Positions 10,432-29,434 of a stretch of DNA of 32,028 nt are shown piece after piece. This DNA is from Geminicoccaceae bacterium (GTDB lineage Bacteria; Pseudomonadota; Alphaproteobacteria; Geminicoccales; Geminicoccaceae): assembly GCA_023512415.1 (NCBI GenBank), contig JAILZQ010000017.1, positions 1 to 32,028 of the forward strand, given 5' to 3'. The notes beneath the pieces are model-generated. The model did no database searches and had not been told where the DNA came from. It saw nothing but the letters and a program-made list of their open reading frames with translations. Position numbers and translations under genes: made by a program. The stretch's first letter is position 1. Each line of letters starts with the position of its first letter.

Positions 10432-12261
10432 GTGATCGCCACCCTTCGAACCCGAGCCTTCGGCCGACGCTCGCTCCTCGCCCGCTACACGGCCGAGCTC
10501 GTGCGCCTGCACGACCAGGGGCTCGCCGCGATCGCCATCGAGCGCGGCCGGACCCTGGTCGGGCTCGACGCCCAGCTCCGCGCGCTCGTCGACCAAGCCT
10601 TCGACGGAATCCTCGTGGCCGACGGGACGCTCTCGATCCGTCTCGCCAACCGCGCCGCGGCGGCGATGTTCGGCTGGGAATCGTCGAGCGGCATGCTCGG
10701 CCGCCGGCTGGGGGATCTCCTGCCGCAGCTGCCGCTCGAGGGCGGTCAGGCGATGCCGCTCCCCGGCGGGCAATGGGAGACCGAGGCGCGCCGCCGCGAC
10801 GGATTCTGGTTACCGGTCGAGCTGTCGCTGTCGACGGTGCGAGCCGAGCCGGAGGAACTCTTGCTCGTGACCCTGCGCGACGTGTCCGAACGGCGACGCC
10901 AGGAGGCGCGTCTGCGTCACCAGGCGACCCACGACTCGCTCACCGGGCTCGCCAACCGCGCCTTCCTCTACGAGACTTTGGAGCGGGAGCTCGCCGGCTT
11001 CGAGGACCGCACCGACCAGCTCGCGCTCCTCTTGCTCGACCTCGACCGCTTCAAGGAGGTCAACGACACGCTCGGCCACGATGTCGGCGACCGGCTCTTG
11101 CAGACCGCGGCCCAGCGCGTCCGCGACTGCCTGCACGCGGAGGAGCTCGCCGCCCGCCTCGGCGGCGACGAGTTCGCCGTCCTGTTGCGACCGCCCTGCA
11201 GCACCGAACGAGCGGTCGAGTTGGCACACCGGCTGGTCGAGACGATCCAGCAGCCCTTCCGCCTCGCGGCCGACGTCACGGTCGAAGTGGACGCGAGCGT
11301 CGGCGTGGCGCTGGCGCCCCGCCACGCCCGCGAGGTCGGCGAGCTCGTGCGCTGCGCGGACGTCGCGATGTACGCCGCCAAGCGTGGCACCGGACCGGTC
11401 CAGCTCTACGATCAGAAAGCCGATCCGCACAGTCTGCGGCGTCTCGTCGCCACCACGGCGATCCGCCGGGCGATCCACGAGGGCCAGTTCAAGCTCGCCT
11501 ACCAGCCCAAGTTCGCGCTCGCCACCGGCCGGATCGTCGGCGCCGAGGCGCTCTTGCGCTGGGACCATCCCGAGCACGGACCGATCGCTCCGGCCGAGTT
11601 CGTGCCGCTCGCCGAGCGGACGGGCTCGGTCGTCGCCTTGACCCACTGGACCGTTCGCACCGCCCTCGCCGACCTCGCCCGCTGGCGCGCGGAGGGCAGC
11701 CGCGTCGGGGTCGCGGTCAACCTCGCCGCCCGGGCCCTGCACGACGAGCGGTTGCCCGAGCTGGTCGCCAAGGAGCTGCGCCGCAACGCCATCGAGCCCG
11801 CGGCGCTCACCCTCGAGCTCACCGAGACCACCCTGGTCGCCGACAGCCAGCTCGTCGAGCGGGTGCTGGCTCGCCTGCGCGGACTCGGGGTGCGCCTCGC
11901 GATCGACGATTTCGGCACCGGCTACTCCTCGCTCGCCCTCCTCCAGCGGCTGCGCGTCGACGAACTCAAGATCGACCGCTCCTTCGTGGTCGGCACCGCT
12001 TCGGGCGCGCCGATCGTGCTCGCGCGCACGGCGATCGAGCTCGCCCACAATCTGGGCCTCGTCGCGGTCGCCGAGGGGATCGAGACGGTCGAGCAGTTGC
12101 GCATGCTGCAAGCGGCGGGCTGCGAGCAAGGTCAAGGTTACCTGCTCGGCAAGGCGATGCCGCCGGACCGGTTCGCCCGGCTGCTCGCTGCCGAGCGGCA
12201 GGCCGCCGCGACCCGAGATGTGCTCGGATGCGGTGCCGCCTCGGCTCAGACGGCGAAGTAG
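10432..12261 (+). CDS. PAS-GGDEF-EAL cyclic di-GMP turnover protein
   Basis: This 609-residue cytoplasmic protein has no membrane segment. A PAS domain spans about 47-155 and a GGDEF diguanylate cyclase domain about 163-328, with intact GGDEF at 244-248 and DLDRFKEVNDTLGH at 203-216. An EAL phosphodiesterase domain spans about 342-588 with EALLRW at 372-377, LTETTL, DDFGTGYSS at 492-500 and EGIET at 548-552. Both catalytic signatures look complete, so it could make or degrade c-di-GMP, with PAS as the sensor. No RxxD inhibitory site sits 5 residues before GGDEF. The start is GTG 10432, with GGAG 8 bases upstream. The 3' end overlaps the convergent metH stop by 16 bases. Confidence 0.95.
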   Translation: MIATLRTRAFGRRSLLARYTAELVRLHDQGLAAIAIERGRTLVGLDAQLRALVDQAFDGILVADGTLSIRLANRAAAAMFGWESSSGMLGRRLGDLLPQLPLEGGQAMPLPGGQWETEARRRDGFWLPVELSLSTVRAEPEELLLVTLRDVSERRRQEARLRHQATHDSLTGLANRAFLYETLERELAGFEDRTDQLALLLLDLDRFKEVNDTLGHDVGDRLLQTAAQRVRDCLHAEELAARLGGDEFAVLLRPPCSTERAVELAHRLVETIQQPFRLAADVTVEVDASVGVALAPRHAREVGELVRCADVAMYAAKRGTGPVQLYDQKADPHSLRRLVATTAIRRAIHEGQFKLAYQPKFALATGRIVGAEALLRWDHPEHGPIAPAEFVPLAERTGSVVALTHWTVRTALADLARWRAEGSRVGVAVNLAARALHDERLPELVAKELRRNAIEPAALTLELTETTLVADSQLVERVLARLRGLGVRLAIDDFGTGYSSLALLQRLRVDELKIDRSFVVGTASGAPIVLARTAIELAHNLGLVAVAEGIETVEQLRMLQAAGCEQGQGYLLGKAMPPDRFARLLAAERQAAATRDVLGCGAASAQTAK

Positions 12262-15200
12262 CGCGCCTGCGGGTGGTGCAGGACGATCGCCGAGGTGCTC
12301 TGCTCGGGCCAGAGCTGGTCCTCCTCACCGAGCTCGACGCCGATGCGGTGCGCTTCGAGCAGCTCTAGCAGCGGCCGTTGGTCGGCGAGATTGGGGCAGG
12401 CCGGATAGCCGAAGCTGTAGCGGCTGCCGCGATAACCCTGCTTCAAGAGCTCGCGCATCTCGCGCGCGTCTTCGTGGCCGAAGCCGAGTTCGGCGCGGAT
12501 CCGGGCGTGCACGTACTCGGCGAGCGCCTCGGCGAGCTCCACCCCGAGCCCGTGCAGCCTTACATAGTCCTGGTAGCGGTTCTGGGCGAACCAGGCGCGG
12601 GCCACTTCGGAGGCGCGCTGGCCCACCGTGACCACCTGGAGCGCGAGGACGTCGCGCTCCGCCGCGCGGATGTCACGCAAAAAATCGGCGATACAGAGAC
12701 CGCCCGGCTTCGCCTGACGTGGCAAGTGGAACCGGACCAGTTCGCGCTCGCCTCCCGGCTCGAACAGCACGACGTCGTTGCCGTCTCCCGCTGCCGGAAA
12801 ATAACCGTACGCGGCTTTGGGCTCGAAGACGTCCTCTTCTTCGGCTCGTGCCACGAGATCCGCGAGGATGGGGCGAAGCTCCTTCTGCGCCCAGGCGAGG
12901 AATTCTTCCGGCCGCCGACCTTGCTTCTCGTAGCCCCAGTGGAACTGATAGAGCATCGATTCGTTGAGATAGGGCAAGAGGGCCTTGACCGGGACGCGCT
13001 CGATGATCCGGGCACCCCAAAAGGGCGGCTTGGGGACCGGCACGTCGCGGGTGAGGGCTTCGCGGCGCAGGCGGATCTCCTCGAGGTCGACGGGCCGCTG
13101 CGGTCGCGCCCTGCCGTCCAGATGCGCGAGCGTGCGCGGCTTCTTGCCGGGTCGGCCGCGAGCCGCTGCCTTCCTCGCCCGCTCCGCACAATAGGCGGCG
13201 ATCTCGCCGCTCATCACCTTGTCCATGAGCACGAGGCCGTCGAACGCGTCGCGCGCGTAGGCCACCGGCCGTTCCCCGTAGGCCCGGAAGCAATCCTCCT
13301 CGACGAAGGCCCGCGTGAGCGCCGCCCCGCCGAGCAGCACCGGGATCCGGACCTGGCTCCTCGCCATTTCCTCGAGGTTCTCCTTCATGATCACCGTCGA
13401 CTTGACCAGCAGCCCCGACATACCGATCGCATCGGCCTTGTGGACCTCGGCCGCCTCGAGGATGTTGGCGAGCGGCTGCTTGATACCGAGATTGACGACC
13501 TTGTAGCCGTTGTTGGTCAAGATGATGTCCACGAGGTTCTTGCCGATGTCGTGGACGTCACCCTTCACGGTGGCCAGCACGATGGTTCCTTTGTGTCGGC
13601 CTTCGAACTTCTTCATTCGTGGTTCGAGATACGCGACCGCGGCTTTCATCGTCTCGGCCGACTGGAGGACGAAGGGAAGCTGCATCTTCCCGGCGCCGAA
13701 CAGCTCGCCCACCGTCTTCATCCCGTCGAGCAAGAGCTCGTTGATGATGGCGAGCGGCTCGTAGCGCGCGAGCGCCTCCTCGAGATCCGCCTCGAGGCCC
13801 TGGCGGTCGCCGTCGACGATCCGCTGCTTCAACCGCTCTTCGACCGTCTCCGGCCGTTTGCGCTCGGCCGCGCCCGCCTTGCGGCCGGCGAACAGCGCGA
13901 TGAAGGCCTGCAGCGGGTCGTGCCCCGGCCGCCGCCGATCGTAGACGAGGTCGAGGGCCGCCTCGACCTCGGCCTGCGGGATCTTGTGGAGGGGTACGAT
14001 CTTCGACGAGTGGACGATGGCCGCCGTCAGGCCGCGTCGCCGGGCCTCGTCGAGGAACACCGAATTGAGCACGTGACGGGCCGCGGGTGCGAGGCCGAAG
14101 CTGATGTTGGACAGCCCGAGGACGATCTGGACCTCGGGCCATTCGGCGGCGATCCGCTCGATCGCTTCGAGGGTCCAGAGCCCCAGCTTGCGGTCGTCCT
14201 CGTTGCCGGTGCAGATCGTGAAGGTGAGCGGGTCGATCAACAAGTCCGAGAGCGGCAAGCCGAACCGGCCGCAGGCGAAGTCGACCAGCCGCCGGGCGAT
14301 CCTCACTTTGTCATCGGCGGTCTTGGCCATGCCGCGCTCGTCGATCGTGAGCGCGATCACCGCGGCACCGAACTTCCGCGCGAGCCGCATCCGCGCTTCG
14401 GCCGGCCCCTCGCCGTCCTCGAAATTGATCGAGTTGAGGACCGCCTTGCCACCGTAGAGCTCGAGCGCCGCTTCGAGCACCGGGAGCTCGGTCGAATCGA
14501 TCACGAGAGGTGCGTCGACTTGGCCGCGCATCCGGCTCACGAGCTCGACCATGTCGGCGACCTCGTCGCGGCCGACATAGGCCGTGCACACGTCGAGCGC
14601 GTTGGCACCTTCGCGGACCTGCTCGCGGCCGATGGCCACGCAAGCATCCCAGTCGCCGGCCGCTTGGAGCTCGCGGAACCGTTTGGAGCCGTTGGCGTTG
14701 CAGCGCTCGCCGATGTCGAGATACGCGTTTTCCTGACGGAGCGGCACCGCCGAGAAGAGCGACGCGAGAGAGGGGACGGGGCGGACGTTGCGCGCCCCGG
14801 GTCGTGGCCGGAAGCCGTCGGGAGCCAGCCGGCGCAGCATCGAATCGAGCGCAGCGATGTGCGCCTCGTTGGTGCCACAACAGCCACCCAGGAAGGTGAT
14901 GCCGTCCTCGACCACGAACCGCTCGAGCCAGAGCGCGAGCTCGGCCGGGCCGAGCGGGTAGAAGGTCCGCCCCTCGCGGAGCTCGGGCAGGCCGGCATTG
15001 GGTTGGACCGAGATCGGTCCCGGCCAGTTCTGCGCGAGATACCGAACGTGCTCGGCCATCTCCTTGGGTCCGGTGGCGCAATTGAGCCCGAGGACCGGCA
15101 CGTCGAGGGCCCCGACGATCGCCACGGCCGCGGCGATGTCGGTGCCGACCAACATGGTGCCCGTGGTCTCGACGGTCACCTGCACCATGAGCGGGACGGA

Positions 15201-15743
15201 CCGACCGAGCGCCGCGAAGGCGGCCCGGCAGCCGTTGACCGCCGCCTTGATCTGCAGGGGGTCCTGGCAGGTTTCGATCAACAGGGCGTGGACGCCGCCC
15301 TCGAGCAGACCGCGGGCCTGCACGGCGAGCGCCTGTTCGAGAGTCCGGTAGTCCACGTGGCCCAGGGACGGCAGCCGGGTCCCGGGGCCGATCGCGCCGA
15401 CCACGAAGCGCTCGCGCCCGTCCTTCGGCAGCTCGGCGATCGCCTCGAAGGCGAGCTCGGCCGCCCGACGATTGATCTCGAGAGCCCGATCGGCCAGGCC
15501 GAACTCGCCGAGCGTGAGCGGCGAGCCGCCGAAGCTGTTGGTCTCGATCGCGTCGGCCCCTGCCGCCAGGTACGCCGCGTGGATCTCGCGCACGAGATCG
15601 GGCCGAGAGAGGTTCAACACCTCCGAGCAATTCTCCTGGCCCCAGAAATCGTCGAGCGAGAGGCCGCGGGCCTGGATCTGGGTCCCCATGCCGCCGTCGA
15701 ACAGGACGAGGCGTTCGCGCGCATAGTCGAGGAAATCGGCCAT
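12246..15743 (-). CDS. metH: Cobalamin-dependent methionine synthase
   Basis: This full-length MetH has 1165 residues. Homocysteine-binding domain: about 1-310, zinc cysteines C222 (GLNCATGP), C288 and C289 (GGCCG). Methyltetrahydrofolate domain: about 335-600, with GERCNANGS at 345-353. Cobalamin cap and Rossmann domains: about 630-860, with DVHDIGKN at 729-736 where H731 is the lower cobalt ligand. C-terminal AdoMet-dependent reactivation domain: about 900-1165, with SRYSFGYPACPNL near 1107-1119. It transfers a methyl group from methyltetrahydrofolate to homocysteine in the cytoplasm. It lies 15 bases downstream of metF in one operon, so the two enzymes make and use the methyl donor together. 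It is slightly shorter than E. coli MetH (1227 residues) but has all modules. Confidence 0.98.
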   Translation of the reverse strand: MADFLDYARERLVLFDGGMGTQIQARGLSLDDFWGQENCSEVLNLSRPDLVREIHAAYLAAGADAIETNSFGGSPLTLGEFGLADRALEINRRAAELAFEAIAELPKDGRERFVVGAIGPGTRLPSLGHVDYRTLEQALAVQARGLLEGGVHALLIETCQDPLQIKAAVNGCRAAFAALGRSVPLMVQVTVETTGTMLVGTDIAAAVAIVGALDVPVLGLNCATGPKEMAEHVRYLAQNWPGPISVQPNAGLPELREGRTFYPLGPAELALWLERFVVEDGITFLGGCCGTNEAHIAALDSMLRRLAPDGFRPRPGARNVRPVPSLASLFSAVPLRQENAYLDIGERCNANGSKRFRELQAAGDWDACVAIGREQVREGANALDVCTAYVGRDEVADMVELVSRMRGQVDAPLVIDSTELPVLEAALELYGGKAVLNSINFEDGEGPAEARMRLARKFGAAVIALTIDERGMAKTADDKVRIARRLVDFACGRFGLPLSDLLIDPLTFTICTGNEDDRKLGLWTLEAIERIAAEWPEVQIVLGLSNISFGLAPAARHVLNSVFLDEARRRGLTAAIVHSSKIVPLHKIPQAEVEAALDLVYDRRRPGHDPLQAFIALFAGRKAGAAERKRPETVEERLKQRIVDGDRQGLEADLEEALARYEPLAIINELLLDGMKTVGELFGAGKMQLPFVLQSAETMKAAVAYLEPRMKKFEGRHKGTIVLATVKGDVHDIGKNLVDIILTNNGYKVVNLGIKQPLANILEAAEVHKADAIGMSGLLVKSTVIMKENLEEMARSQVRIPVLLGGAALTRAFVEEDCFRAYGERPVAYARDAFDGLVLMDKVMSGEIAAYCAERARKAAARGRPGKKPRTLAHLDGRARPQRPVDLEEIRLRREALTRDVPVPKPPFWGARIIERVPVKALLPYLNESMLYQFHWGYEKQGRRPEEFLAWAQKELRPILADLVARAEEEDVFEPKAAYGYFPAAGDGNDVVLFEPGGERELVRFHLPRQAKPGGLCIADFLRDIRAAERDVLALQVVTVGQRASEVARAWFAQNRYQDYVRLHGLGVELAEALAEYVHARIRAELGFGHEDAREMRELLKQGYRGSRYSFGYPACPNLADQRPLLELLEAHRIGVELGEEDQLWPEQSTSAIVLHHPQARYFAV

Positions 15744-15758
15744 CGGCTCGCCCCGCGC

Positions 15759-16679
15759 TCAACCGGCCGCGCCCTGCCGGGCGGCCTTGAGGATCTGGAC
15801 GATGGCGAGCGGCAGCTCGGCGCGGTTCAAGGCGTAGACGTGGATCGCCTCGAAGCCGGCGGCGGCGAGCCGGCGCACCTGCTCGGTGACGACCGTGGCG
15901 GCGATCATGCCGTGCAGCGCCGAGCCCTCGGGCACGCCCTCGAAAAGATCGGCGAGCCAGGTGGGGATGCTGGCGCCACAGGCGGCGGAAAAGCGGCGGA
16001 TCTGGGAAAAGCTGTGGATCGGCATGATACCCGGCACGAACTCACAAGCGATGCCGGCGCGCGCGACCGCGTCGCGGAAGCGCAGGATCCGGTCCGTGTC
16101 GAAGCAGTACTGGCCGATCGCCCGGACCGCGCCCGCCTCGACCTTGCGCTTGAGATTGTCGAGGTCGAAGGCGGCCGACGGGGCCTCGGGGTGGACCTCC
16201 GGGTAGCAAGCGACGCTCACCTCGAAGCCGCCCATCCTTTGGATCGCGCGGACCAGGTCGACGGCGTAAGCGTAGCCGTCCGGCCGCGGCCGATAGGGGC
16301 CCGTCTCCTTGGGCGGATCGCCGCGCAGGGCCACGATCCGGGTGATCCCGGCGGCACGGTAGCGCTCGAGCAGCGCGTCGATCTCCGCGCGCGGCGCGAA
16401 GGCGCAGGTGAGATGCGCCGCGACCGGAACCCCGAAGCGGGCCTGGATCGCCACCGCCAAGGGGAAGGTGCCGCTCTCGCCGCTGCCCCCGGCACCGCAG
16501 GTGACCGACAAGAAGCGCGGCCCAGTGGCCGCGAACAGCTCGAGGTTCTGCCAGAGTCGCTCGGTCGCTTCCGGGCTCTTGGGCGGGAACACCTCGATCG
16601 AGAGGCGGACCTGCGGCAATGGTTCGTCGAGCCAGCCGGCCGCGCGCAGGCGGCTCGCCGCCCCCCGCCCGGAGCTCAT
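15759..16679 (-). CDS. metF: 5,10-methylenetetrahydrofolate reductase
   Basis: This 306-residue flavoprotein reduces methylene-THF to methyl-THF, the donor for MetH. Recognised motifs are EVFPPK (29-34, E29 the catalytic glutamate), SVTCGAGG (58-65), AHLTC (88-92), LRGDPPKE (118-125, D121), YPEVHPEA (159-166), and DNLKRKVEAGA followed by IGQYCFD (188-194). IMPI at 218-221 is also typical. The length matches bacterial MetF. The ATG overlaps the stop of the upstream ArsR-methyltransferase gene (ATGA), and metH follows after 15 bases, so all three should be co-transcribed and translationally coupled at this junction. Confidence 0.97.
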   Translation of the reverse strand: MSSGRGAASRLRAAGWLDEPLPQVRLSIEVFPPKSPEATERLWQNLELFAATGPRFLSVTCGAGGSGESGTFPLAVAIQARFGVPVAAHLTCAFAPRAEIDALLERYRAAGITRIVALRGDPPKETGPYRPRPDGYAYAVDLVRAIQRMGGFEVSVACYPEVHPEAPSAAFDLDNLKRKVEAGAVRAIGQYCFDTDRILRFRDAVARAGIACEFVPGIMPIHSFSQIRRFSAACGASIPTWLADLFEGVPEGSALHGMIAATVVTEQVRRLAAAGFEAIHVYALNRAELPLAIVQILKAARQGAAG

Positions 16680-17668
16680 GCCGCGACCCTCGGCGCACCG
16701 GCCCGCACCCGGCCGGGCTGGCGCCCGGGGGCCAGCGCCGACCAGACGACGCTCGTGAGCTCACGTCCGGGCAAGCGGAACGGCGGTCGCGCGATGAGCC
16801 CGAGCTCGCCGAACCAGGCGGCCATCTCCTCGTCGCTGAAGCCGAGCCGCCGGTGTCGACGTTCGCTCCGGAGCTCCTCGCGGTCGTGGGCGGCAAGATC
16901 GACCACCACGAGCAGCCCGCCCGGCTCGAGCACCCGACGGGCCTCGGCCAGAACCTGGCGGGGGTCGTCGGCGAAGTGCAGGACCTGGTGCAGGGTGACC
17001 GCGGCGAAGCTCGAATCGGCGAGCGGCAGCCGGTACATGTCGGCGTGCCGCACCGAACAGTGGCGCAGGCCGGCGCGGTCGAGATTGGCCCGTGCGAGGG
17101 CGAGCATGCGGTGCGAGACGTCGACCCCGAGCGCTTCGCCGACGAACGGCCCGAGAACTTCGAGCATCCGCCCCGTCCCGGTCCCGATGTCGAGCAGGCT
17201 CGCGGGCCGGGTTTCGGCGAACAGCCGGCTGAGCACGCTCTCGACGCGGCTGCCCTCGGCGGCCAGGTCGCGCTCGCTGTCCCACTCCGCGGCGCGCCCG
17301 TCGAACCATTGCTCGATCCGACCGCGACGCGCCTCGCGCACGGCGGCGAGCCGGGCCCGGTCGAGGGCGAGGGTCGGATCGTCGGTCGGCAGGAGCCCGG
17401 CGAGCGCCCGGGCGAGCGCTGCTCCGGGCCCGCGGCTCGCCCGACGATAGAAGACCCAGCTGCCCTCGCGGAACCGCTCGAGCAGGCCGGCCTCGCTCAA
17501 CAGCCGGAGATGGCGGGAGACCCGCGGTTGGCTCTGGCCGAGCACCTCGACGAGTTCGCTCACCGTCCACTCTCCCTCGGCGCAGACCGCGAGGAGCCGC
17601 AACCGGGTTCGCTCGCCGGCGGCCTCGAGGCCGTCGAGCAGCCGATCGAGCTCGGTCTCCGTCGCCAC
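16676..17668 (-). CDS. ArsR-family regulator fused to a SAM-dependent methyltransferase (SahR-like)
   Basis: This 330-residue two-domain protein combines an N-terminal ArsR winged helix (about 1-80; recognition helix in SQPRVSRHLRLLSEAGLL, 46-63) with a C-terminal class I methyltransferase fold (about 110-315; SAM motif LLDIGTGTG at 158-166, VLEPGGLLVVVD at 246-257). The GTG at 17668 is chosen over an upstream ATG at 17704 because GAGGGAG sits 6 bases before it. The same fusion, next to metF and metH, is known in Alphaproteobacteria as the SahR type, which senses S-adenosylhomocysteine and represses methionine-cycle genes. The domain fusion is seen; the SahR role is inferred from architecture and neighbours. 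It overlaps the metF start. Confidence 0.85.
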   Translation of the reverse strand: MATETELDRLLDGLEAAGERTRLRLLAVCAEGEWTVSELVEVLGQSQPRVSRHLRLLSEAGLLERFREGSWVFYRRASRGPGAALARALAGLLPTDDPTLALDRARLAAVREARRGRIEQWFDGRAAEWDSERDLAAEGSRVESVLSRLFAETRPASLLDIGTGTGRMLEVLGPFVGEALGVDVSHRMLALARANLDRAGLRHCSVRHADMYRLPLADSSFAAVTLHQVLHFADDPRQVLAEARRVLEPGGLLVVVDLAAHDREELRSERRHRRLGFSDEEMAAWFGELGLIARPPFRLPGRELTSVVWSALAPGRQPGRVRAGAPRVAA

Positions 17669-17694
17669 CGCGCGCTCCCTCGAAAGCTCGGCGC

Positions 17695-17714
17695 ATATGT
17701 ACATCTCGTTATAT
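17695..17714 (-). promoter_or_regulatory. AT-rich candidate operator/promoter of the methionine operon
   Basis: A 20-base A/T-rich island lies 27 bases upstream of the regulator's GTG, flanked by very GC-rich DNA. It begins and ends with ATAT (minus strand ATATAACGAGATGTACATAT), an imperfect inverted repeat. An autoregulatory ArsR/SahR site or the -10 region are both plausible; the inner bases are not palindromic. Confidence 0.35.
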
Positions 17715-18522
17715 CTCGCGGCAAGTGCACCGCCCGCCGGCCGTGCCCGCCCCGAATGCCGGCGCAGCGGGCCGCGTGCACGCCGAGGCCGCGCGTTCCG
17801 AGTGCTTTCTCCGACGTCCGGGCGGCTCGACCTCGGCGGATCGAGCCGACGAGCGAAGCGGAGGGGCCGGCCCCGGGCAACCGCGGCCGACCGAAGCTCG
17901 CGCGATCGGATCGGAGCGAGCCGAGCGAACCGCCGCCCCGGAGCGATGCGTCGGAGGGGGCGAGCGAGGCCGCCGGGCCTTCCCTTCGACGCGGTCCCTG
18001 CCATCCCGTCCGGCCCCGGGCGGGGCAACGACCGGCGAGGGCGGACGGAGCCACCCGTCGGCGCGTCGACGGACGGCCGAGGGACCGCAGGGCCCGGCTG
18101 CCGGGCGGGCGCTCGGCGCTCGTCCGCCCGTCGCCACCCCTGCCGGAGGGCCGCTCGTACCGTTCGGGCAGGCCCGCGCGGGTCCACGACGCGGCCGCAC
18201 CGAACGGCGCCCCTGCGGACCCGTCCGAGGGTCCGGTCGGCCAGGAGCGGGAGGCGCTCCCCGTCTCGGCCGGCGCCCCACCGACCCGGCCGCCGGGCCG
18301 CCTCACGGCGCAGGTCGCAGGCGGCGAGCCCGGGCGCGAGCGCGGGGCTCCTCCGCGGGTCGAGCACGGCGCGTCGGCGAGCCGGGTGCGCAGCATGGCG
18401 ACACCCCAGGCGAACGGGCCCCGAGCGGACCAGCGCGATCGCGCGACGGTTTCGGCCACCCGAGCCGGTATCGAGGGACGAGGAACGGCGCGCCTCGGCC
18501 CGCAGGCCGAAGGCTCGCTCCG
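17715..18522. other. Gene-free GC-rich block upstream of the methionine operon
   Basis: Roughly 800 bases have no convincing coding frame. Long frames exist on both strands, but the translations are proline-, arginine-, glycine- and alanine-rich and carry no conserved motif. No tRNA or known riboswitch was recognised. It shares two exact 14-base words (18360-18373 and 18470-18483) with the 8.1-8.7 kb block. It may hold the distal promoter of the methionine operon, decayed genes, or an unknown RNA. Confidence 0.5.
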
Positions 18523-18810
18523 TCAGCCGGGCCGCCGGTCGTCGAGCCGGCCGAGCGAGCGCGCGGCGGGCTCGTCGAACAACCAGGCGAAGAGCGCCTC
18601 CTCGACCTCGCGCCGGAGCTCGCCCGGGTAGAGCGCGAGGGCGTCGATGGCGGCCGCGACCCGCCCGGGGTCGCCCGCCCGCAAAGCCCGGTCGAACCGG
18701 CGGAAGACGAGCGAGTCGCCACCGAGCAGCGCCCGCAGACGCTCGCGCAAACGGTCGATCCCGACGATCCGTGGCGTCGTGCCGAACTCCACCGGCCGCT
18801 CCCCGATCAC
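18523..18810 (-). CDS. Small conserved-looking protein of unknown function (95 aa)
   Basis: This frame reads like a real, mainly helical soluble protein, unlike the low-complexity frames beside it. It has RLRERLRALLGGDSLVFRRFDRAL (about 20-43), a GDPGRVAAAIDALALYPGELRREVEEALFAWLFDE helical run (about 47-81), and a short basic tail. No signal peptide or membrane helix is present, and I recognise no family. The start is GTG 18810; a CtrA-like direct repeat begins 10 bases upstream in the shared intergenic region with mlaA. The gene is divergent from mlaA-mlaC and stands alone. Function unknown. Confidence 0.6.
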   Translation of the reverse strand: MIGERPVEFGTTPRIVGIDRLRERLRALLGGDSLVFRRFDRALRAGDPGRVAAAIDALALYPGELRREVEEALFAWLFDEPAARSLGRLDDRRPG

Positions 18811-18819
18811 GACCCGCTC

Positions 18820-18836
18820 TCAACCTCGCGTCAACC
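18820..18836 (+). promoter_or_regulatory. CtrA-like direct repeat between the 95-aa gene and mlaA
   Basis: TCAACC-TCGCG-TCAACC is an exact 6-base direct repeat with 11-base period, each copy one mismatch from the CtrA half-site TTAACC. It lies in the divergent intergenic region, 9 bases from the leftward GTG and about 160 bases from the mlaA start. Confidence 0.4.
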
Positions 18837-20428: not shown

Positions 20429-23161
20429 TCAGGCAGCGAGTGCTGCGACCTCTTCGGCGACCGGCAGGGTGAAGCACAGCGCGGCGCCACCGAGCGTCGA
20501 ATCCTCGACCCAGATCCGGCCGCCGAAGCGCTCGACGATCTGCCGGGAGATGGTGAGGCCGAGCCCGGTGCCGGTCGGTTTTTGGGTGTTGAGGTCGCCC
20601 GTGAGCTGGTGGAACTTTTCGAACACCGCCTCGCGCTGGGACGGGGGCACGCCCGGCCCGTTGTCCTCGACCCGGACCTCGAAGACCGCGCCCCGGCGGC
20701 GCAGCTCGACCCGCACCCGCCCCCCGGGTCGGGGCACGAACTTGCAGGCGTTCGAGAGCAGATTGAGAACCACCTGGACGATCCGGTCGCGGTCGCAGAC
20801 CACGGGCGTGGGCTCGGCCGGGATCGCGACCTCGAGGGCGACCCCCCTCTCCGTGAGGATCCCCTGGCCGGCACGGATCGCGGCGCGCACGAGTTCGCCC
20901 AGATCGGCCGGGGCCACCTGCCAATCCATCCGGCCGGACTCGATCTTGGAGAGATCGAGCACGTCGTTGATCAGCCGGGTGAGCCGCTCCGATTCGCTCG
21001 TGATGATCCGCAGGAAATGCGCCCGCTCCTCGGCATCGAGGTCGGGGTTGTCGAGCAGGATCTCGGAGAAGGAGCGGATCGAGGTCAACGGCGTCCTGAG
21101 CTCGTGACTCACGGTCGCGAGAAAATCGTCCTTGAGCCGGTCGAGTTCGCGCAGCCGCTCGTTGGCACGCCGGAGCTCGGCGGTGGCGGCTTCGAGCTCG
21201 TGCGATTTCTGCTCGAGCCGCCGACTGTACTCCAGGACCTTCTGCGTCTCGTCGAGGATTTCCATGAGCGTATCGGGTCCGACGGTCTCGCCGCGCACCG
21301 CCGAGGCCACCACCGCCCGCGCCGAGGCGGCGCCGATCGCCCGGGCGAGCTGGCGTTCGGCGCGCTCGACGAGCCGTGCATCGGCCGGCTCCTCGGGCCC
21401 GAGCGGACGGCCCCGACGGGCCGCCTCCTCCCGCCAGATCGCCTCGGCCGCGGGCCGGCCGAGGAAGCGCACGAGCAGCTCCTCGAGCGCACCGACTTTG
21501 GCCTCGCCGCGCCAGAGCCGCGGCGTGCGCCGGCTCTGCTCGACGTCGACGAACAGGATCGCCTGCAGCCGCTCGAGGTCGGAAGGCCGGGTGAGCAGGC
21601 TCACGAGCACGACGAGCCCGGTGTTCACCGAAAGGCTCCAGATCGCGCAGTGGGCCACCGGGTTGAGCCCCGCGAGCCCGAAGAGCGCGGTCGGGCGCAA
21701 CAGATCGAGGCCGAACGGGCCTTCCGCCACGAGGCTCTGCGGCAACATGCCGGCAGTGACGAAGGAGGGGAGCACGAGCGTGTAGAGCCAGACGAGGAAG
21801 CCGGCCAACAGCCCGGCCACCGCGCCGTTGCGGTTGGCCCCCTTCCAGGCGATGCCGAGCACGAGCAGCGGCGCGAACTGGGCCACACCGGCGAAGGCGA
21901 TGTAGCCGATGCTCACGAGGCCCATGGCCTCGCCGACGCCTTGGAAGAAGAGGTAGCCGCCCAGAAGCGCGAGAAGGATGCCGGCCCGCCGCACGCCCAG
22001 GATCAAGCGTGTGAGATCGGGCTTGCGGGCGAGGCCCAGACCCTTCATCCGCAGGAGAATCGGCATGACGAGATCGTTGGAGATCATGGTCGAGACGGCC
22101 ACCGTCTCGACGATGACCATGGCGGTCGCAGCCGACAGCCCGCCCAAGAACGCGAAGATCGCGAGCCAGCTCTGGCCGTGCACGAGCGGCAGGGCGAGCA
22201 CGAAACTGTCGGCCTCGCCCACCGTGCCACCCAGGATCAGGCCACCGAGCGCGATCGGCAGGACGAAGAGGTTGATGACGAACAGATAGAGCGGGAACAG
22301 CCAGCTGGCTCGCTTCAGGTGCGCGATGTCGAGGTTCTCGATGACCACGACCTGGAACTGGCGCGGCAAGAGCAGTGCGGCGAGGCCGGAGAGGAGGGTG
22401 AGGACGAACCAGTCGGCGGCGCCGAGTCGGGTTCCGGTGAAGGCCAGCCGATCGCTCAGACCGGCTTCCCCGGCGCGCGCCAAGAGGTCGAACGGGCCGC
22501 CGAACAGGCCCCAGGTGACGAACAGGCCGACCGCCAAGAAGCAGAAGAGCTTGACGATGCTCTCGAAGGCGATCGCCAGGACCATGCCCTGATGGTGTTC
22601 GGTGGCGTCGATGTGCCGGGTGCCGAAGAGGATCGAGAAGGCGGCGAGCAGGACGGTGACGATCAAGGCGGTATCGGCCCCGATGCCGGCCAACACGTCC
22701 TGCCCGCCGCCGTGCGCGATCAACAGCCCGACGCCGGTGGCAACCGCCTTGAGTTGGAGGGAGATGTAGGGGATCGAGCCCACGAGCGCGACGATCGTGA
22801 CGAGCCCGGCCACGGCCCCGCTCTTGCCGTAGCGGGCGGAGGCGAAGTCGGCGATCGAGGTGATCCCGTAGGCCTTGGCGATCACCAGGATCTTGCGAAC
22901 GAAGCCGAGGAACAGCAGGGCCAGGAGCGTGGGCCCTAGATAGACCGGCAAGAAGCCCGCGCCTTGCGCGGCTGCCACGCCGACGCTGCCGAAATAGGTC
23001 CAGGCGGTGCAATAGACGGCGAGCGAGAGGGTGTAGACGTAGGGGTTGGCGATCACCGACCGGCCGGCCTCGGCGCGCCGATCGCCCCAAGAAGCGAGGG
23101 CGAAGAGCAGGCCCAGATAGAGCAGCGAGACCAGGATCGCGGTCGGGGCGAGCCAGCCCAT
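20429..23161 (-). CDS. Sodium/solute symporter-type sensor histidine kinase (CbrA/CrbS-like)
   Basis: This 910-residue hybrid has an SLC5/SSS-type transporter region of about 13 helices (1-525), including GFLPVYLGPTLL and TSIADFASARYGKSGAV. A cytoplasmic linker (525-640) and a coiled coil (640-680) follow. The HisKA domain has phosphoacceptor H686 in TVSHELRTPL. The ATPase domain has N804 (N box), DNGPG at 833-837 and GTGLGL at 864-869. Proteins of this build, such as CbrA and CrbS, control carbon/nitrogen balance or acetate use and may sense a transported solute. It is last in an operon with a receiver, an exonuclease fusion and a small membrane protein, which starts 3 bases upstream. No clear PAS domain is visible in the linker. 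The solute is unknown. Confidence 0.93.
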   Translation of the reverse strand: MGWLAPTAILVSLLYLGLLFALASWGDRRAEAGRSVIANPYVYTLSLAVYCTAWTYFGSVGVAAAQGAGFLPVYLGPTLLALLFLGFVRKILVIAKAYGITSIADFASARYGKSGAVAGLVTIVALVGSIPYISLQLKAVATGVGLLIAHGGGQDVLAGIGADTALIVTVLLAAFSILFGTRHIDATEHHQGMVLAIAFESIVKLFCFLAVGLFVTWGLFGGPFDLLARAGEAGLSDRLAFTGTRLGAADWFVLTLLSGLAALLLPRQFQVVVIENLDIAHLKRASWLFPLYLFVINLFVLPIALGGLILGGTVGEADSFVLALPLVHGQSWLAIFAFLGGLSAATAMVIVETVAVSTMISNDLVMPILLRMKGLGLARKPDLTRLILGVRRAGILLALLGGYLFFQGVGEAMGLVSIGYIAFAGVAQFAPLLVLGIAWKGANRNGAVAGLLAGFLVWLYTLVLPSFVTAGMLPQSLVAEGPFGLDLLRPTALFGLAGLNPVAHCAIWSLSVNTGLVVLVSLLTRPSDLERLQAILFVDVEQSRRTPRLWRGEAKVGALEELLVRFLGRPAAEAIWREEAARRGRPLGPEEPADARLVERAERQLARAIGAASARAVVASAVRGETVGPDTLMEILDETQKVLEYSRRLEQKSHELEAATAELRRANERLRELDRLKDDFLATVSHELRTPLTSIRSFSEILLDNPDLDAEERAHFLRIITSESERLTRLINDVLDLSKIESGRMDWQVAPADLGELVRAAIRAGQGILTERGVALEVAIPAEPTPVVCDRDRIVQVVLNLLSNACKFVPRPGGRVRVELRRRGAVFEVRVEDNGPGVPPSQREAVFEKFHQLTGDLNTQKPTGTGLGLTISRQIVERFGGRIWVEDSTLGGAALCFTLPVAEEVAALAA

Positions 23162-23164
23162 GGC

Positions 23165-23359
23165 TCACTCCTCCCCTTGTCGCTCGATCAGCCAGGCGGC
23201 CGCTCCGATCACCACCGCCCACACGCCGAACAGGTAGAAGGGCAGAAGCGGGACATCGCCCGCCACGATGCGCTCGACCACCGCGAGGGTCGGGAAGTTG
23301 AAGAGCACGAGGGCCACGAGCGCGAGCGCCGCCAGTCGAGCGACGGGTCGATCAAGCAC
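23165..23359 (-). CDS. 64-residue two-helix membrane protein upstream of the sensor kinase
   Basis: This small protein starts at GTG 23359, overlaps the exonuclease-fusion stop by 8 bases, and ends 3 bases before the kinase ATG. It has hydrophobic segments at about residues 8-28 and 36-57 and ends in IERQGEE. Short membrane proteins encoded just before SSS transporters or SSS kinases (the DUF4212 and CbrX types) are known, and this one may be an accessory subunit. I cannot assign it to either family by motif. Tight coupling on both sides supports a real gene in the operon. Confidence 0.72.
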   Translation of the reverse strand: MLDRPVARLAALALVALVLFNFPTLAVVERIVAGDVPLLPFYLFGVWAVVIGAAAWLIERQGEE

Positions 23360-25433
23360 GGCGGGCCACCTCCCCGCGACGCGCCCGCTGCCGGCGGATC
23401 TCGACCATCGAGCGGCTCGCGCGGATCGCCTCGCCGAGCGTCGCCATCCCCCGCAGCTCGAGCATGCCGATCAGCCGGACCAGGATCTCGGCGGTGGCGA
23501 GGCTGTCGCCGAGTGCGGTGTGCCGGCCGCGGATCTCGACCCCGAGGCGGGCGGCCACGCCGTCCAGACTGTGGTCGCCCTCCTGGTCCTGCAGCAGGGC
23601 GGAGATCAAGAGCGTGTCGAGCACCGGTTGATCGAGACGGATCCCGGCGCCCGCTTCGTATTTGTGCAAAAAGGCCAAGTCGAAGGCGGCGTTGTGGGCG
23701 ACCAGCACGGCACCCTCGGCGAAGCGGGCGAAGCGGGCGAGGACGAGCTCGGGCGGCGGCTTGCCGCGGATCATCTCGGGCGTGATGCCGTGGAAGCGGA
23801 TCGACGCCTCGGGGATCGGCCGGCCGGGATCGACCAGGCAGTCGAAGACCTCGCCGTGGATCACCCGGCCGTTGACCACCCGGACCGCGGCGAGCTGGAG
23901 CAGGTCGTCGGTCTCGGCATCGAGGCCCGTGGTCTCGCAATCGAGCACCACGTAAGTGAGCGAACGCAAGGGGCGCGCCTCGAGAGCGCCGGCCGAAGGC
24001 GCGAGGTCGAAGTCGTAGAATTCGGGCCGGGCCGGGAGCACCGGCGCGACGCGGACGGGGTGGAGGCCGGTCGGGGGCGGCAGCGGGAAGTGGAGGGCCG
24101 CGCCGTCGGCGGTGGCCGCCACCCAGGGCTCCGCGCCGTGCCGCTCGGCGATCTCGCGGGCCGTGAAGGGCAGGCCGAAGCGGTCGAGCTTGCCGTCGAG
24201 CCAGGCGTCGAGTTCGGCGCGGGTCGGCACCGGACCGGTCCAGGCGAGGCGCAGCGTGACCCCGCTCGGCCGCGCGCGGGCCGACAGCCGGGCCTCGCGC
24301 ACGCCCCGCCCGGCGAGTTCTTCGAGGAAGCTCGCGAGCAGGCTCACGAGCGTCGCGCAGTCGGCGCTCGCCCACACGCTCTCGCCCTCGCCGCCGAGCT
24401 GGACCGGCACGCCGAGCGTGGCGAGCCGCTCGGCCAGGACGTCGCGCAGGTCGCCGCTCGCAACGTCGTACAGCGGCCATTGGCGGAGTGTCAGGGCGCG
24501 GGCCTCGCCGGCGAGCTCGGCCAAGAGCTTCTCGAGCCGGCCCGCCTCTTCCTCGACCACCCGGGCGAACCAACCGCTCTGCTCGTCCGGCTGGCTGTCG
24601 CGCAGGACTTCGGCGGCGGCGCGGATCGATGCGACCGGGCCGCGCCAGGCGGTCTCCAGCTGGTCCAACAGCCGGCCGGTACCGCTCGCCACCTGCAGCC
24701 CGGCCTCGGCGATCGCCAGCACGAAGCCCTCGCTGCCGGGCAGCTCCTCGCCCACCAGGCTCAGCCGGCAGCGCAGCAGCCGGCCGGTCTCGCCGGCCGC
24801 GGCGATGAACGGCTCGCCGGCCCGCGCCGGGCCGCCGGCCGCCGTCCGGCGCAACAGGTCGACGTGGTAGGCGAGCGTCTCGCGCGAGACCACCTCGAAG
24901 ATCGAGCGGCCGAGGCCGAGCCCGGCAGGCGACCCCAGAAGGGTCACCGCGGCGTCGTTGTAGAGCAGGATCCGCCCGTCCGGGGCGCAGTGGACGAGCC
25001 CCTCGCCGACGTCCTTCAGAATCGCCGCGAGCCGGCGCCGATCGGCCTCGGCGGCGGCCTTGGCCCGGGCGCGCTCTTCGGCGAGCCGTTGCTCCGCCCC
25101 CGCGACCCGCTCGAGCAGCTCGTCGAGCCGCCCGGGCAGGGCGCCGAGCGCGTGCCGCGCCGGCAGCGCGAGCTGCTCGCGCCGGCCGGTCCCGAGCACG
25201 GTCTCGATCGCCCGGGCGAGCGCGCGGGCCGGCGCCAACACGAGGCGGTCGACCGCCGCCGCGGCGGCGAGGCAGCCCGCCGCGAGCAGCGCGCCGATCG
25301 CGAGTGCCGCACCGCCGGCCGCCGGTGCGGTGCCGTGGAGTTGGGCCGAGGCGAAGATGCCGAGGCCGAAGGCGGCGGCCGCCAGGGTGCCGCTGGAGAG
25401 CCAGAGCAGACCGCGGGGCTCCGGCAACGTCAC
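23352..25433 (-). CDS. Membrane-anchored PAS/pseudo-kinase fused to a DEDDh 3'-5' exonuclease
   Basis: This 693-residue protein starts at GTG 25433, 5 bases after the response regulator stop. It has two N-terminal membrane helices (about 10-32 and 38-61), a coiled coil (about 100-135) and a PAS domain (about 133-245). A histidine-kinase-like helical segment follows (about 253-312); it keeps RGPVASIRAAAEVL but has T261 where the phosphoacceptor histidine should be. The ATPase-like region (about 325-455) lacks clear G boxes. The C-terminus (493-640s) is a DnaQ-type exonuclease with D498, E500, D585, H638 and D643. DnaQ domains remove 3' nucleotides; here the domain may be regulated by a membrane sensor. 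It overlaps the next small gene. Confidence 0.85.
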   Translation of the reverse strand: MTLPEPRGLLWLSSGTLAAAAFGLGIFASAQLHGTAPAAGGAALAIGALLAAGCLAAAAAVDRLVLAPARALARAIETVLGTGRREQLALPARHALGALPGRLDELLERVAGAEQRLAEERARAKAAAEADRRRLAAILKDVGEGLVHCAPDGRILLYNDAAVTLLGSPAGLGLGRSIFEVVSRETLAYHVDLLRRTAAGGPARAGEPFIAAAGETGRLLRCRLSLVGEELPGSEGFVLAIAEAGLQVASGTGRLLDQLETAWRGPVASIRAAAEVLRDSQPDEQSGWFARVVEEEAGRLEKLLAELAGEARALTLRQWPLYDVASGDLRDVLAERLATLGVPVQLGGEGESVWASADCATLVSLLASFLEELAGRGVREARLSARARPSGVTLRLAWTGPVPTRAELDAWLDGKLDRFGLPFTAREIAERHGAEPWVAATADGAALHFPLPPPTGLHPVRVAPVLPARPEFYDFDLAPSAGALEARPLRSLTYVVLDCETTGLDAETDDLLQLAAVRVVNGRVIHGEVFDCLVDPGRPIPEASIRFHGITPEMIRGKPPPELVLARFARFAEGAVLVAHNAAFDLAFLHKYEAGAGIRLDQPVLDTLLISALLQDQEGDHSLDGVAARLGVEIRGRHTALGDSLATAEILVRLIGMLELRGMATLGEAIRASRSMVEIRRQRARRGEVARRA

Positions 25434-25438
25434 GCTCC

Positions 25439-25810
25439 TCAGCCGACGTCGAGCATGCGCTTGACCTGCTCGACGAGCTCGCGGGTCGAGAAGGGCTTGG
25501 TCACGTAGGCGTCGGCGCCGAGCGCCAGGCCGCGCTCGCGCTCCGCCTCGCGTCCGCGGGCCGTGAGCATGATGATCTTGGTCCCCCGCCATTCGGGCTT
25601 GGCGCGGATCCGCTCGCAGACCTCGTAGCCGTCGAACTCCGGCATCATGACGTCGAGCAGCATGAGGTCGGGCGGCTCACCCTCGAGCGCCCTCAAGGCT
25701 TCGCCGCCGCTCCTCGCCACCTGCACCTCGAAGCCGGCGCGCCGCATCAAGAACTCGAGGCTCAAGACGATGTTGGGCTCGTCGTCGACCACCAGCACAC
25801 GTTTGGCCAT
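25439..25810 (-). CDS. Single-domain response regulator (CheY-like receiver)
   Basis: This 123-residue receiver has no output domain. The acidic pocket is D9-D10-E11 (VVDDEPN), the phosphoacceptor is D53 (LLDVMMPEFDG), and the switch residues are T83 and K105 (YVTKPFSTRELVEQVKRML). The start is ATG 25810 with a GGGGAGG 6 bases upstream. It is the first gene of the leftward operon with the exonuclease fusion, the small membrane protein and the SSS kinase, so that kinase is its likely phosphodonor. Without a DNA-binding domain it must act by protein contact or in a phosphorelay; the target is not visible here. It is divergent from ettA, with about 200 bases between. Confidence 0.94.
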   Translation of the reverse strand: MAKRVLVVDDEPNIVLSLEFLMRRAGFEVQVARSGGEALRALEGEPPDLMLLDVMMPEFDGYEVCERIRAKPEWRGTKIIMLTARGREAERERGLALGADAYVTKPFSTRELVEQVKRMLDVG

Positions 25811-27755: not shown

Positions 27756-28220
27756 ATGGCGAAGGATCGATGGGACTGGAACGGGCTCGCTGCGGCGCTC
27801 GCCGCCCCGCTCCTCCTCGCAGGCTGCGTCGACCCGCTCGTCAACCGCCCTACGGGCGAGGCCGAGCGCTGGAGAGGCCGGGCCGAAGCGGTAGAGACCG
27901 CGGAAGGCCGTTGCCCTCCGGTCGAGTTCGAGCTGTTCCGCGACGCCCTCGCGATCGGCGGCACGGCGCGCGAGGTGGGTGCCGCGGAGACCGGGCTCGC
28001 CGCGACCGGCGGCTGGTGGGTGGAGGGCACCGTCAACCCGAACGGCAGCTTCTTGTTCACCCTGCGCCGGCAGGGGCCGCTACTCGTCGAGGGTCCGCGG
28101 CCGGCTTCGGTCTGGCGCGGACGGTTCGGTACGGGCGAAGTGGTGGCGGTCGAACAGCCGCCCTCCTGCGGCCGCCGGGTGCGGCTCGTGCGCGAGGCGG
28201 GGGGAGCACCGGCCTCCTGA
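27756..28220 (+). CDS. Small lipoprotein of unknown function
   Basis: This 154-residue protein has a lipoprotein signal: a hydrophobic stretch from about residue 10 and a lipobox LLAGC with C24, so it is probably anchored to a membrane facing the periplasm. The mature part looks beta-rich, with alternating patterns such as WWVEGTVNPNGSFLFTLRR (87-105). Two more cysteines, C53 (GRCPP) and C138 (PPSCGRR), could form a disulphide. I recognise no family. The start is ATG 27756, with GGAGGG 5 bases upstream. It follows ettA by 59 bases and precedes the channel gene by 8 bases, so it probably shares a transcript with the channel. Confidence 0.75.
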   Translation: MAKDRWDWNGLAAALAAPLLLAGCVDPLVNRPTGEAERWRGRAEAVETAEGRCPPVEFELFRDALAIGGTAREVGAAETGLAATGGWWVEGTVNPNGSFLFTLRRQGPLLVEGPRPASVWRGRFGTGEVVAVEQPPSCGRRVRLVREAGGAPAS

Positions 28221-28228
28221 GGCGGCCC

Positions 28229-29434
28229 GTGGCGCTGCGCGCGCGCATCTACGAGCTGATCGAGGACGAGGAAGCGAGTGGCCCCGCCGTCCACGCGGTA
28301 CGGGGCGGTCTGGCCCTCGCGATCCTCGCGGCCTCGCTCCTCGTGGTGGTCGAATCGGTCGAGCCTTGGGCCGAGCGGATCGGCTTCGCTCTGGCAACGG
28401 GCGAACTCGCCTTCATGCTCCTCTTCACGCTCGAATACGCGCTCCGGCTCTGGGTCGCCGTGGAAGACCGGGCCGGCCGCTACGGCCATCCGATCCTGGG
28501 CCGGCTGCGCTGGGCCGCCACTCCTTCGGCCGTGGCCGACCTCGTGGCCGTGCTGCCGTTCTGGCTGGCGCCGCTCCTGCCGACCGATCTCTTCCTGCTG
28601 CGGCTTTTGCGGCTGCTCCGAATCCTCAAGATCGTGCGGCTGTCGCCGGCGCTCGCCACCTTCCAGGTCGTGCTGCACGCCCAGCGCCGTCAGCTCGCGG
28701 CGGTGGGCCTCTTGCTCGCCATCCTCCTCCTGCTGCTCGCCGGTGCCATGCACGCGATCGAGGGCCGGGTGCAGCCCGAGGCCTTCGGCTCCATCCCCAA
28801 GGCCCTCTATTGGGCGGTCGTGACCCTCGCCACGGTCGGCTACGGCGACGTCGTGCCGGTGACCCCGCTCGGCCGACTGGTGGCGGGCGGTGCCGCCCTC
28901 TTGAGCCTCGCCACGATCGCCTTCCCGACCGCGATCTTGGGCGCCGGCTTCGTGCGCGAGATGCAGCAGCAGGATTTCCTCGCCCGCGCCGGCATGGTCG
29001 CCCGGGTGCCGCTGTTCCGCCACCTGCCGCCCGCCCAGCTCGCCGAGATCACCGCCCTCCTCCACCAGCGCAACCTGCCGCCGCGCTACACGATCATCCG
29101 ACGGGGCGAGCATCCCGAGGCCATGTACTTCATCGACCAGGGTCGGGTCGTGATGCGGGTGGGAGAGCGGCGGATCGTGCTCGGGCCCGGCAGCTTCTTC
29201 GGCGAGCTCGCGCTGCTCGAGGGCCGACCGCGCGAGGCCACGGTCATCACCTTGACCTCCTGCCGGCTCCTCGAACTCGACGCGAGCGACTTCCACCGGC
29301 TGATCGGTGGCGATCCGGAGCTGCGCCGGAACCTCCTCGCCGAGGCGCGCGAGCGGGCGCGCAGCATCGGCCACCCCCTGCCGGGCGAGGCCGAGGCCGG
29401 AGCGGGATCCGGCGGTCGGGCCTCGGACAGCTGA
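28229..29434 (+). CDS. Voltage-sensor potassium channel with cyclic nucleotide-binding domain
   Basis: This 401-residue inner-membrane channel has six helices: S1 about 23-43, S2 52-75, S3 99-115, S4 119-138, S5 155-175 and S6 213-243. S4 has positive charges at every third position: R125, R128, R131, K134, R137. The pore filter is TVGYGD (202-207), diagnostic of potassium selectivity. The C-terminal domain (about 258-370) is a cyclic nucleotide-binding fold with FFGELALLEGRPREATV (323-339), where E325 and R335 sit at the phosphate-cassette positions. The build resembles bacterial MloK1-type cyclic-nucleotide-gated channels. The start is GTG 28229, supported by GAGG 6 bases upstream; no better start precedes it. 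An adenylate cyclase gene lies about 0.9 kb downstream on the other strand. Confidence 0.92.
   Translation: MALRARIYELIEDEEASGPAVHAVRGGLALAILAASLLVVVESVEPWAERIGFALATGELAFMLLFTLEYALRLWVAVEDRAGRYGHPILGRLRWAATPSAVADLVAVLPFWLAPLLPTDLFLLRLLRLLRILKIVRLSPALATFQVVLHAQRRQLAAVGLLLAILLLLLAGAMHAIEGRVQPEAFGSIPKALYWAVVTLATVGYGDVVPVTPLGRLVAGGAALLSLATIAFPTAILGAGFVREMQQQDFLARAGMVARVPLFRHLPPAQLAEITALLHQRNLPPRYTIIRRGEHPEAMYFIDQGRVVMRVGERRIVLGPGSFFGELALLEGRPREATVITLTSCRLLELDASDFHRLIGGDPELRRNLLAEARERARSIGHPLPGEAEAGAGSGGRASDS

Follow-up and report, generated by a model that had tools for sequence, protein, structure and literature searches.

A putatively membrane-anchored pseudo-kinase-exonuclease fusion as a possible enzymatic output of a two-component system

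Introduction

What controls an exonuclease that is built into the same polypeptide as a membrane-anchored sensor kinase, and what could such an enzyme act upon? The question is raised by a gene (23352-25433, minus strand) in a 32,028-nucleotide stretch of DNA from a Geminicoccaceae bacterium, which is referred to here as the window. The outputs of two-component systems are mostly transcription, cyclic-di-nucleotide turnover and chemotaxis. In the window, a chain ending in a DEDDh 3'-5' exonuclease is encoded between the genes for a stand-alone response regulator (RR) and for a histidine kinase that resembles a sodium-solute symporter.

Domain organisation of the fusion protein

The gene encodes 693 amino acids from a GTG start codon, directly 5' of which lies GGAG. 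Pfam recognises a PAS domain (residues 134-201, E 3e-5) and RNase_T (PF00929, residues 495-651, E 8e-34), together with a partial HisKA match (264-307, E 6e-4) that stays under the Pfam cut-off. An AlphaFold2 model based on 69 aligned homologues (mean pLDDT 87.8) begins with two helices at the N-terminus and a long stalk, continues with PAS, a helix pair of the DHp type and a CA-like alpha/beta region, and ends in the exonuclease. The two N-terminal helices are hydrophobic (residues 6-32 and 37-60, 25254-25418 on the minus strand, as are all parts of the gene; model helices 6-32 and 37-82) and probably constitute a membrane anchor, which would place the protein at the membrane. They are followed by a helical stalk or coiled coil (residues 61-140, 25014-25253; model helix 99-140) and by the PAS domain, delimited by Pfam (PF00989), model and alignment (residues 134-243, 24705-25034). 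Within the latter, N159 is kept in 365 of 366 homologues and an LGLGR motif is conserved near positions 172-176. The DHp-like pair, to which the partial HisKA match belongs, covers residues 248-318 (24480-24692; helices 248-279 and 282-318), and a CA-like pseudo-domain of the HATPase fold, assigned from its fold match and residue counts, covers residues 322-451 (24081-24470). The model then shows a disordered linker (459-481) containing RPEFYDF (residues 469-475, 24009-24029), a signature that precedes the nuclease and is a hallmark of the family. The exonuclease domain itself comprises residues 493-660 (23454-23957), as defined by the Pfam match, structural comparison and catalytic residues.

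When the full model was submitted to Foldseek, the N-terminal half matched multi-domain sensor kinases (WalK, the VicK-like 4i5s, ThkA-TrrA and NifL) and the C-terminal half the exonucleases of PolC, epsilon and DinG. Since nuclease matches filled the fold list, the kinase part was also modelled and searched separately. The initial annotation, made from the DNA letters, had read the gene as a one-chain fusion of two helices, a coiled coil, PAS, a HisKA-like pair, an ATPase-like region and a DnaQ exonuclease. Pfam and the model recover all of these parts; the predicted structure includes PAS and HisKA-type folds, and each half has counterparts among solved structures.

Elsewhere in the window, a methionine-synthesis cluster (12246-16679 and 16676-18823, both minus strand) consists of consecutive genes for cobalamin-dependent methionine synthase, methylenetetrahydrofolate reductase and an ArsR-methyltransferase regulator. 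A stand-alone HerA-type helicase (8659-10335, minus strand) is related to models tagged as anti-phage-associated, and in a protein encoded at 27770-29434 (plus strand) an ion channel domain of the voltage-gated type is joined to a cyclic-nucleotide-binding domain at the C-terminus. A simple scan for promoters and terminators gave nothing above chance.

A large and conserved family

The fusion is not a one-off but belongs to a large conserved family, for which 366 distinct full-length homologues were assembled, mostly from Proteobacteria. The recurrence of the same fusion in all of them rules out an artefact of assembly or sequencing, including the joining of two separate genes by a sequencing error that had been envisaged at the outset. 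Within the order, homologues occur in 20 of the 31 genomes, and at E <= 1e-150 the fusion was found in 52/295 genomes of Rhodobacteraceae, 91/400 of Burkholderiaceae and 139/200 of Rhodocyclaceae, some of the last carrying it two or three times. Rhodobacter capsulatus, Stappia, Aquincola, Zoogloea and Pseudomonas are among the named records. Where plasmid records are annotated, the protein goes by "exonuclease domain-containing protein", "3'-5' exonuclease" or "DNA polymerase III subunit epsilon".

An intact nuclease behind a dead kinase

The catalytic DEDDh residues are D498, E500, D585, H638 and D643. All five, as initially claimed, are present in the window protein, and they are invariant in the 366 homologues. 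Structural comparison (VIA-align) aligned the domain with the PolC exonuclease over 192 residues (Z 25.3, rmsd 1.9) and with epsilon at Z 21.4, which puts it in the RNase H-like fold. Judged by its residues, the nuclease is catalytically intact and predicted to cleave phosphodiester bonds in the 3'-5' direction.

The kinase part presents the opposite picture. In the column of the phosphoacceptor, where a kinase has histidine, the 366 homologues show Glu (232), Asp (86), Thr (8) and a single His. The register is fixed by a conserved arginine three residues further on (R264, 347/366) and agrees with a profile alignment of the fusion against the active symporter-kinases encoded next to it (probability 97.7, E 2e-12), in which the kinase motifs THELRTPL and DNGPG lie over TEGSRASL and WTGPV, respectively. 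The initial annotation thus had the right position in T261; the threonine it noted is a peculiarity of one clade, the family norm being Glu or Asp. The N-box asparagine is found at 368 in 2/366 sequences and at 372 in 2/366, and the G1 aspartate at 398 in none, tryptophan occupying that site in 361/366 (W398 in the window protein). The degenerate character suspected for the ATPase-like region is thereby borne out: the CA-like part is folded and has lost its ATP-binding residues. Modelled alone (pLDDT 87.1), the PAS-DHp-CA part matches the CA domain of PrrB (Z 14.6, 130 aligned, rmsd 2.6), the PAS domain of PpsR (Z 14.1) and DivL (4q20, Z 12.3), as well as DHp-plus-CA entries such as CusS. Residues and model together suggest that a sensor kinase gave up autophosphorylation and the binding of ATP while retaining its fold. 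An active kinase is ruled out by the loss of the phospho-His, the N-box Asn and the G1 Asp.

A response regulator that follows the DHp helices

Directly upstream of the fusion lies the gene for the RR, a receiver domain only, of 123 amino acids (25439-25810, minus strand; PF00072, E 1.5e-30). Its end is separated from the fusion start codon by 5 nt, within the 0-10 nt typical of the family. The residues for phosphorylation are in place (D9/D10, D53, T83 and K105 in the window), with D53 conserved in 290/293 and K105 in 292/293 members.

Of the 366 members with DHp helices, 306 have the RR beside the fusion, whereas not one of 38 relatives without these helices does (Fisher p 6e-27, a statistic that ignores kinship although the counts include related sequences). 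For the other 60 full-length members there is no RR in the available DNA, which in some of them stops at a contig end. The DHp-less relatives, most of them from Rhodobacteraceae, represent 11 clades on the exonuclease tree, and the RR is absent from each. Within Rhodobacteraceae, it accompanies 43/46 full-length fusions and 0/20 of the PAS-only members examined. The RR thus tracks the DHp module. Moreover, since it is absent even where the CA-like part has been retained without DHp helices (L280/L281, L106, L031, L049, L111), it appears to be tied to these helices rather than to CA. Co-occurrence of this kind suggests that the signal most likely enters through the stand-alone RR and not through PAS alone. 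Mean-field coevolution analysis of 293 RR-fusion pairs (about 190 effective) yielded credible contacts inside the proteins, such as 266-300 within DHp; couplings of the RR were not enriched at the DHp helices, and the top inter-protein pairs, most of which involved CA or nuclease positions, looked like noise.

Symporter-kinase, DUF294 and acetate genes

Downstream of the fusion, the 910-amino-acid symporter-like histidine kinase (20429-23161, minus strand; HisKA and HATPase_c by Pfam, no receiver) has intact H, N and G boxes in the profile alignment and is by its residues of the active type. The SSF match itself was obtained with the Paracoccus denitrificans counterpart, the window kinase belonging to the same family by profile. 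Between the two genes, a small hydrophobic ORF of 64 amino acids without Pfam match (23165-23359, minus strand) overlaps the fusion stop codon and ends 3 nt before the start of the symporter-kinase. Similar ORFs, with a motif like FNFPLL...GIPLLYxYLF, directly precede 66 of 159 symporter-kinases, including PDEN_RS25400. By analogy with the DUF485/DUF4212 proteins that adjoin symporters, the product possibly serves the symporter-kinase as a small subunit.

The co-occurrence with symporter-type kinases, a survey of which had been proposed at the outset, extends to 32 of 80 named fusion loci. Across the 80 loci, a cNMP-CBS-DUF294 protein (58/80), an acetate-type symporter (48/80) and acetyl-CoA synthetase (23/80) occur as well. 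In P. denitrificans PD1222, the genes for DUF294, the small membrane ORF, the symporter-kinase, the RR and the exonuclease follow one another in a single run with overlapping ends. DUF294 is a GlnD/GlnE-like transferase (PMC3710099), and its active-site motif G-S-x-G-R-x-E...D-Q-D-N is essentially invariant among 229 sequences. The genome from which the window derives has a single DUF294 gene, located on another contig and not beside the fusion.

Two further neighbours were seen at named loci: a membrane protein of some 170 amino acids, conserved but without Pfam match, whose gene is separated from that of the exonuclease by a few hundred bases (L099:1803-2321 and 21 others), and an adenylate kinase gene about 5 kb upstream of the exonuclease in 10 Rhodobacterales loci (e.g., L081:3994-4680). 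An anti-phage system was set aside as an interpretation, since PADLOC matched generic DEDDh models only and the neighbours are metabolic.

Relatives with other architectures

The same exonuclease also occurs in simpler settings. It is joined to two transmembrane helices alone (TM2-exonucleases, L139 and L140), to PAS (L137, L138, L141, L142 and others) or, in one chain, to an EamA-family transporter (L143:643-2148, plus strand; L145:1495-3003, minus strand), in the last case with DUF294 adjacent. Short forms exist as well (L331, L114, L115), two of which, L331 and L115, are soluble. Altogether 27 PAS-exonucleases with neither DHp-CA nor RR were found, spread over many alphaproteobacteria, with DUF294 beside 23 of them; DUF294 likewise adjoins EamA-exonucleases, TM-exonucleases and short forms, so that most alternative architectures have it. 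In DHp-CA-less relatives from scattered genomes (L137-L140, L143-L145, L331), the DUF294 gene is on the opposite strand and often tail to tail with that of the exonuclease. Judging from these gene structures, PAS and pseudo-kinase are dispensable in relatives of the PAS-, TM- and EamA-exonuclease kinds. Tethering and the DUF294 neighbour, being shared by the alternative architectures, emerge as the constant features, and the pseudo-kinase as the part that accompanies the RR.

How might the nuclease be controlled, and what might it cleave?

We favour, with a probability of roughly 0.55, a reading in which the fusion is the membrane-anchored enzyme output of a two-component system whose RR gates the nuclease via the dead kinase. 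The neighbouring symporter-like kinase would phosphorylate the stand-alone RR, which, phosphorylated or not, would dock on the DHp-like helices of the fusion, for which the binding of DivK~P by DivL provides the precedent. The resulting change in a putative pseudo-kinase dimer could then open or restrain the nuclease, with PAS as a possible second input. In this way a solute, in many hosts presumably acetate or a related carboxylate, would control a membrane-held enzyme that cleaves phosphodiester bonds in the 3'-5' direction. What the computations contribute is the fusion itself, the intact nuclease residues, the dead kinase residues, a phosphorylatable RR and the tracking of DHp by the RR. 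The initial annotation had suggested a nuclease gated by membrane signals. Its core stands, in that a tethered DEDDh domain is fused to PAS and an inactive kinase and gating is plausible; the input has to be revised, the RR rather than only PAS being the most likely one.

PAS might instead sense a ligand or redox cue, together with the membrane helices, and gate the nuclease directly, DHp-CA relaying its movement and the RR serving otherwise. The PAS core is the best-conserved part of the N-terminal half, and in the 27 PAS-exonucleases without DHp-CA or RR it evidently functions without an RR. Yet direct gating leaves the tight link between the RR and the DHp-CA form unexplained, and relatives such as the TM- and EamA-exonucleases do without PAS; we regard it as unlikely. 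It is also conceivable, if quite improbable, that the nuclease is constitutively active and that the pseudo-kinase is a dimer or membrane scaffold placing it near the transporter. What recurs across architectures is indeed membrane attachment (TM2, PAS with TM2, EamA) and not the sensing domains, but a scaffold would have no need of an adjacent phosphorylatable RR or of its association with DHp, and some relatives are short and soluble (L331, L115). Histidine-kinase-like folds can, in addition, dephosphorylate RRs, which would make the pseudo-kinase a phosphatase or sink and the nuclease incidental. This is highly improbable: position 265, four after the histidine site, is mostly Ala, Arg, Gly or Ser and not the Thr or Asn of phosphatase-competent kinases, DivL, which shows a comparable loss, has no phosphatase activity towards DivK (PMC4211667), and the nuclease residues are invariant.

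As for the target, RNA, DNA and a nucleotide messenger are all candidates, and membrane-held turnover of mRNA that reshapes carbon metabolism is a tentative possibility, modelled on PP_0353 of Pseudomonas putida. This bacterium requires the RNase_T-family protein PP_0353, whose gene shares an operon with that of the CBS protein PP_0354 under the control of MxtR/ErdR (CrbS/CrbR), for normal growth on pyruvate, and the authors of the study suggest a role in mRNA degradation (PMC9927547). That proposal is, however, a speculation of these authors, who assayed no RNA substrate (PMC9927547), and the closest folds (PolC exonuclease, DinG and epsilon) act on DNA, so the fold does not decide. A distinctly improbable but coherent scheme would pair the exonuclease as eraser with the CBS-DUF294 protein as writer, the RR and pseudo-kinase setting the balance. 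DUF294 would add a nucleotide to a protein, such as the symporter or acetyl-CoA synthetase, or synthesise a nucleotide signal, and the DEDDh enzyme at the membrane would take it away again. DEDDh enzymes cleave the aryl ester p-nitrophenyl-TMP, which is chemically akin to a tyrosyl-nucleotide bond. The adjacency of DUF294 to the exonuclease in nearly every architecture (at 58/80 named and 23/27 PAS-only loci) and the near-invariant motif of this GlnD/GlnE-like transferase (PMC3710099) speak for such a pair; that the only DUF294 gene of the window genome is on another contig speaks against it.

Significance and comparison with known systems

If gating by the RR is correct, the widespread pathway that links a transporter-like kinase, by way of a single-domain RR, to a pseudo-kinase-exonuclease would be a new, enzymatic and membrane-located class of output, and the fusion would join DivL as a second natural dead kinase that serves as an RR reader. 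It would also offer a handle on why acetate/pyruvate systems retain an exonuclease and DUF294, a question raised by the phenotype of P. putida PP_0353. Paracoccus denitrificans PD1222 has a genetically tractable copy in one compact cluster. No published account of the family was found in a literature search that returned PP_0353 and the symporter-kinase papers only and covered subscription journals thinly. The component parts are all of known kinds, and their combination in a nuclease-ended pseudo-kinase, presumably read by an RR, appears to be undescribed as far as the searchable literature shows.

Among known systems, DnaQ/PolC-type DEDDh exonucleases have the fold and all five catalytic residues in common with the fusion, which differs in being apparently tethered to the membrane and joined to a pseudo-kinase and in having no polymerase, helicase or UvrC partner domain. 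PP_0353 and PP_0354 resemble the fusion loci, by description, in combining an RNase_T exonuclease with a CBS protein, a symporter-type kinase and carboxylate use, but the description of PP_0353 makes no mention of a sensor fusion (PMC9927547). A stand-alone Pseudomonas exonuclease beside DUF294 (L115, 235 amino acids) is 31% identical to the window exonuclease. CrbS/CrbR and RpuS/RpuR (PMC5715377, PMC9100948) likewise unite a symporter-like domain with a histidine kinase and with acetate/pyruvate physiology. Their RR drives transcription, whereas the one described here is a receiver only (123 amino acids), has no DNA-binding domain and neighbours a nuclease fusion as the candidate output. NifL, a histidine-kinase-like regulator that also came up in the structural comparison (NifL-NifA complex 9qq6), acts by binding to the transcription factor under its control and, unlike the fusion, has no nuclease. 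The closest parallel for the proposed mechanism is DivL of Caulobacter, a kinase-dead histidine kinase with neither kinase nor phosphatase activity, which uses the RR docking surface to bind DivK~P and acts as a sensor of RR phosphorylation (PMC4211667). Both proteins are PAS-containing dead kinases without phospho-His, the histidine being replaced by Tyr in DivL and by Glu or Asp (Thr in the window) in the fusion family, and a single-domain RR partner, shown for DivL, is proposed for the fusion. DivL, however, regulates the kinase CckA, whereas the output of the fusion would be the nuclease covalently attached to it.
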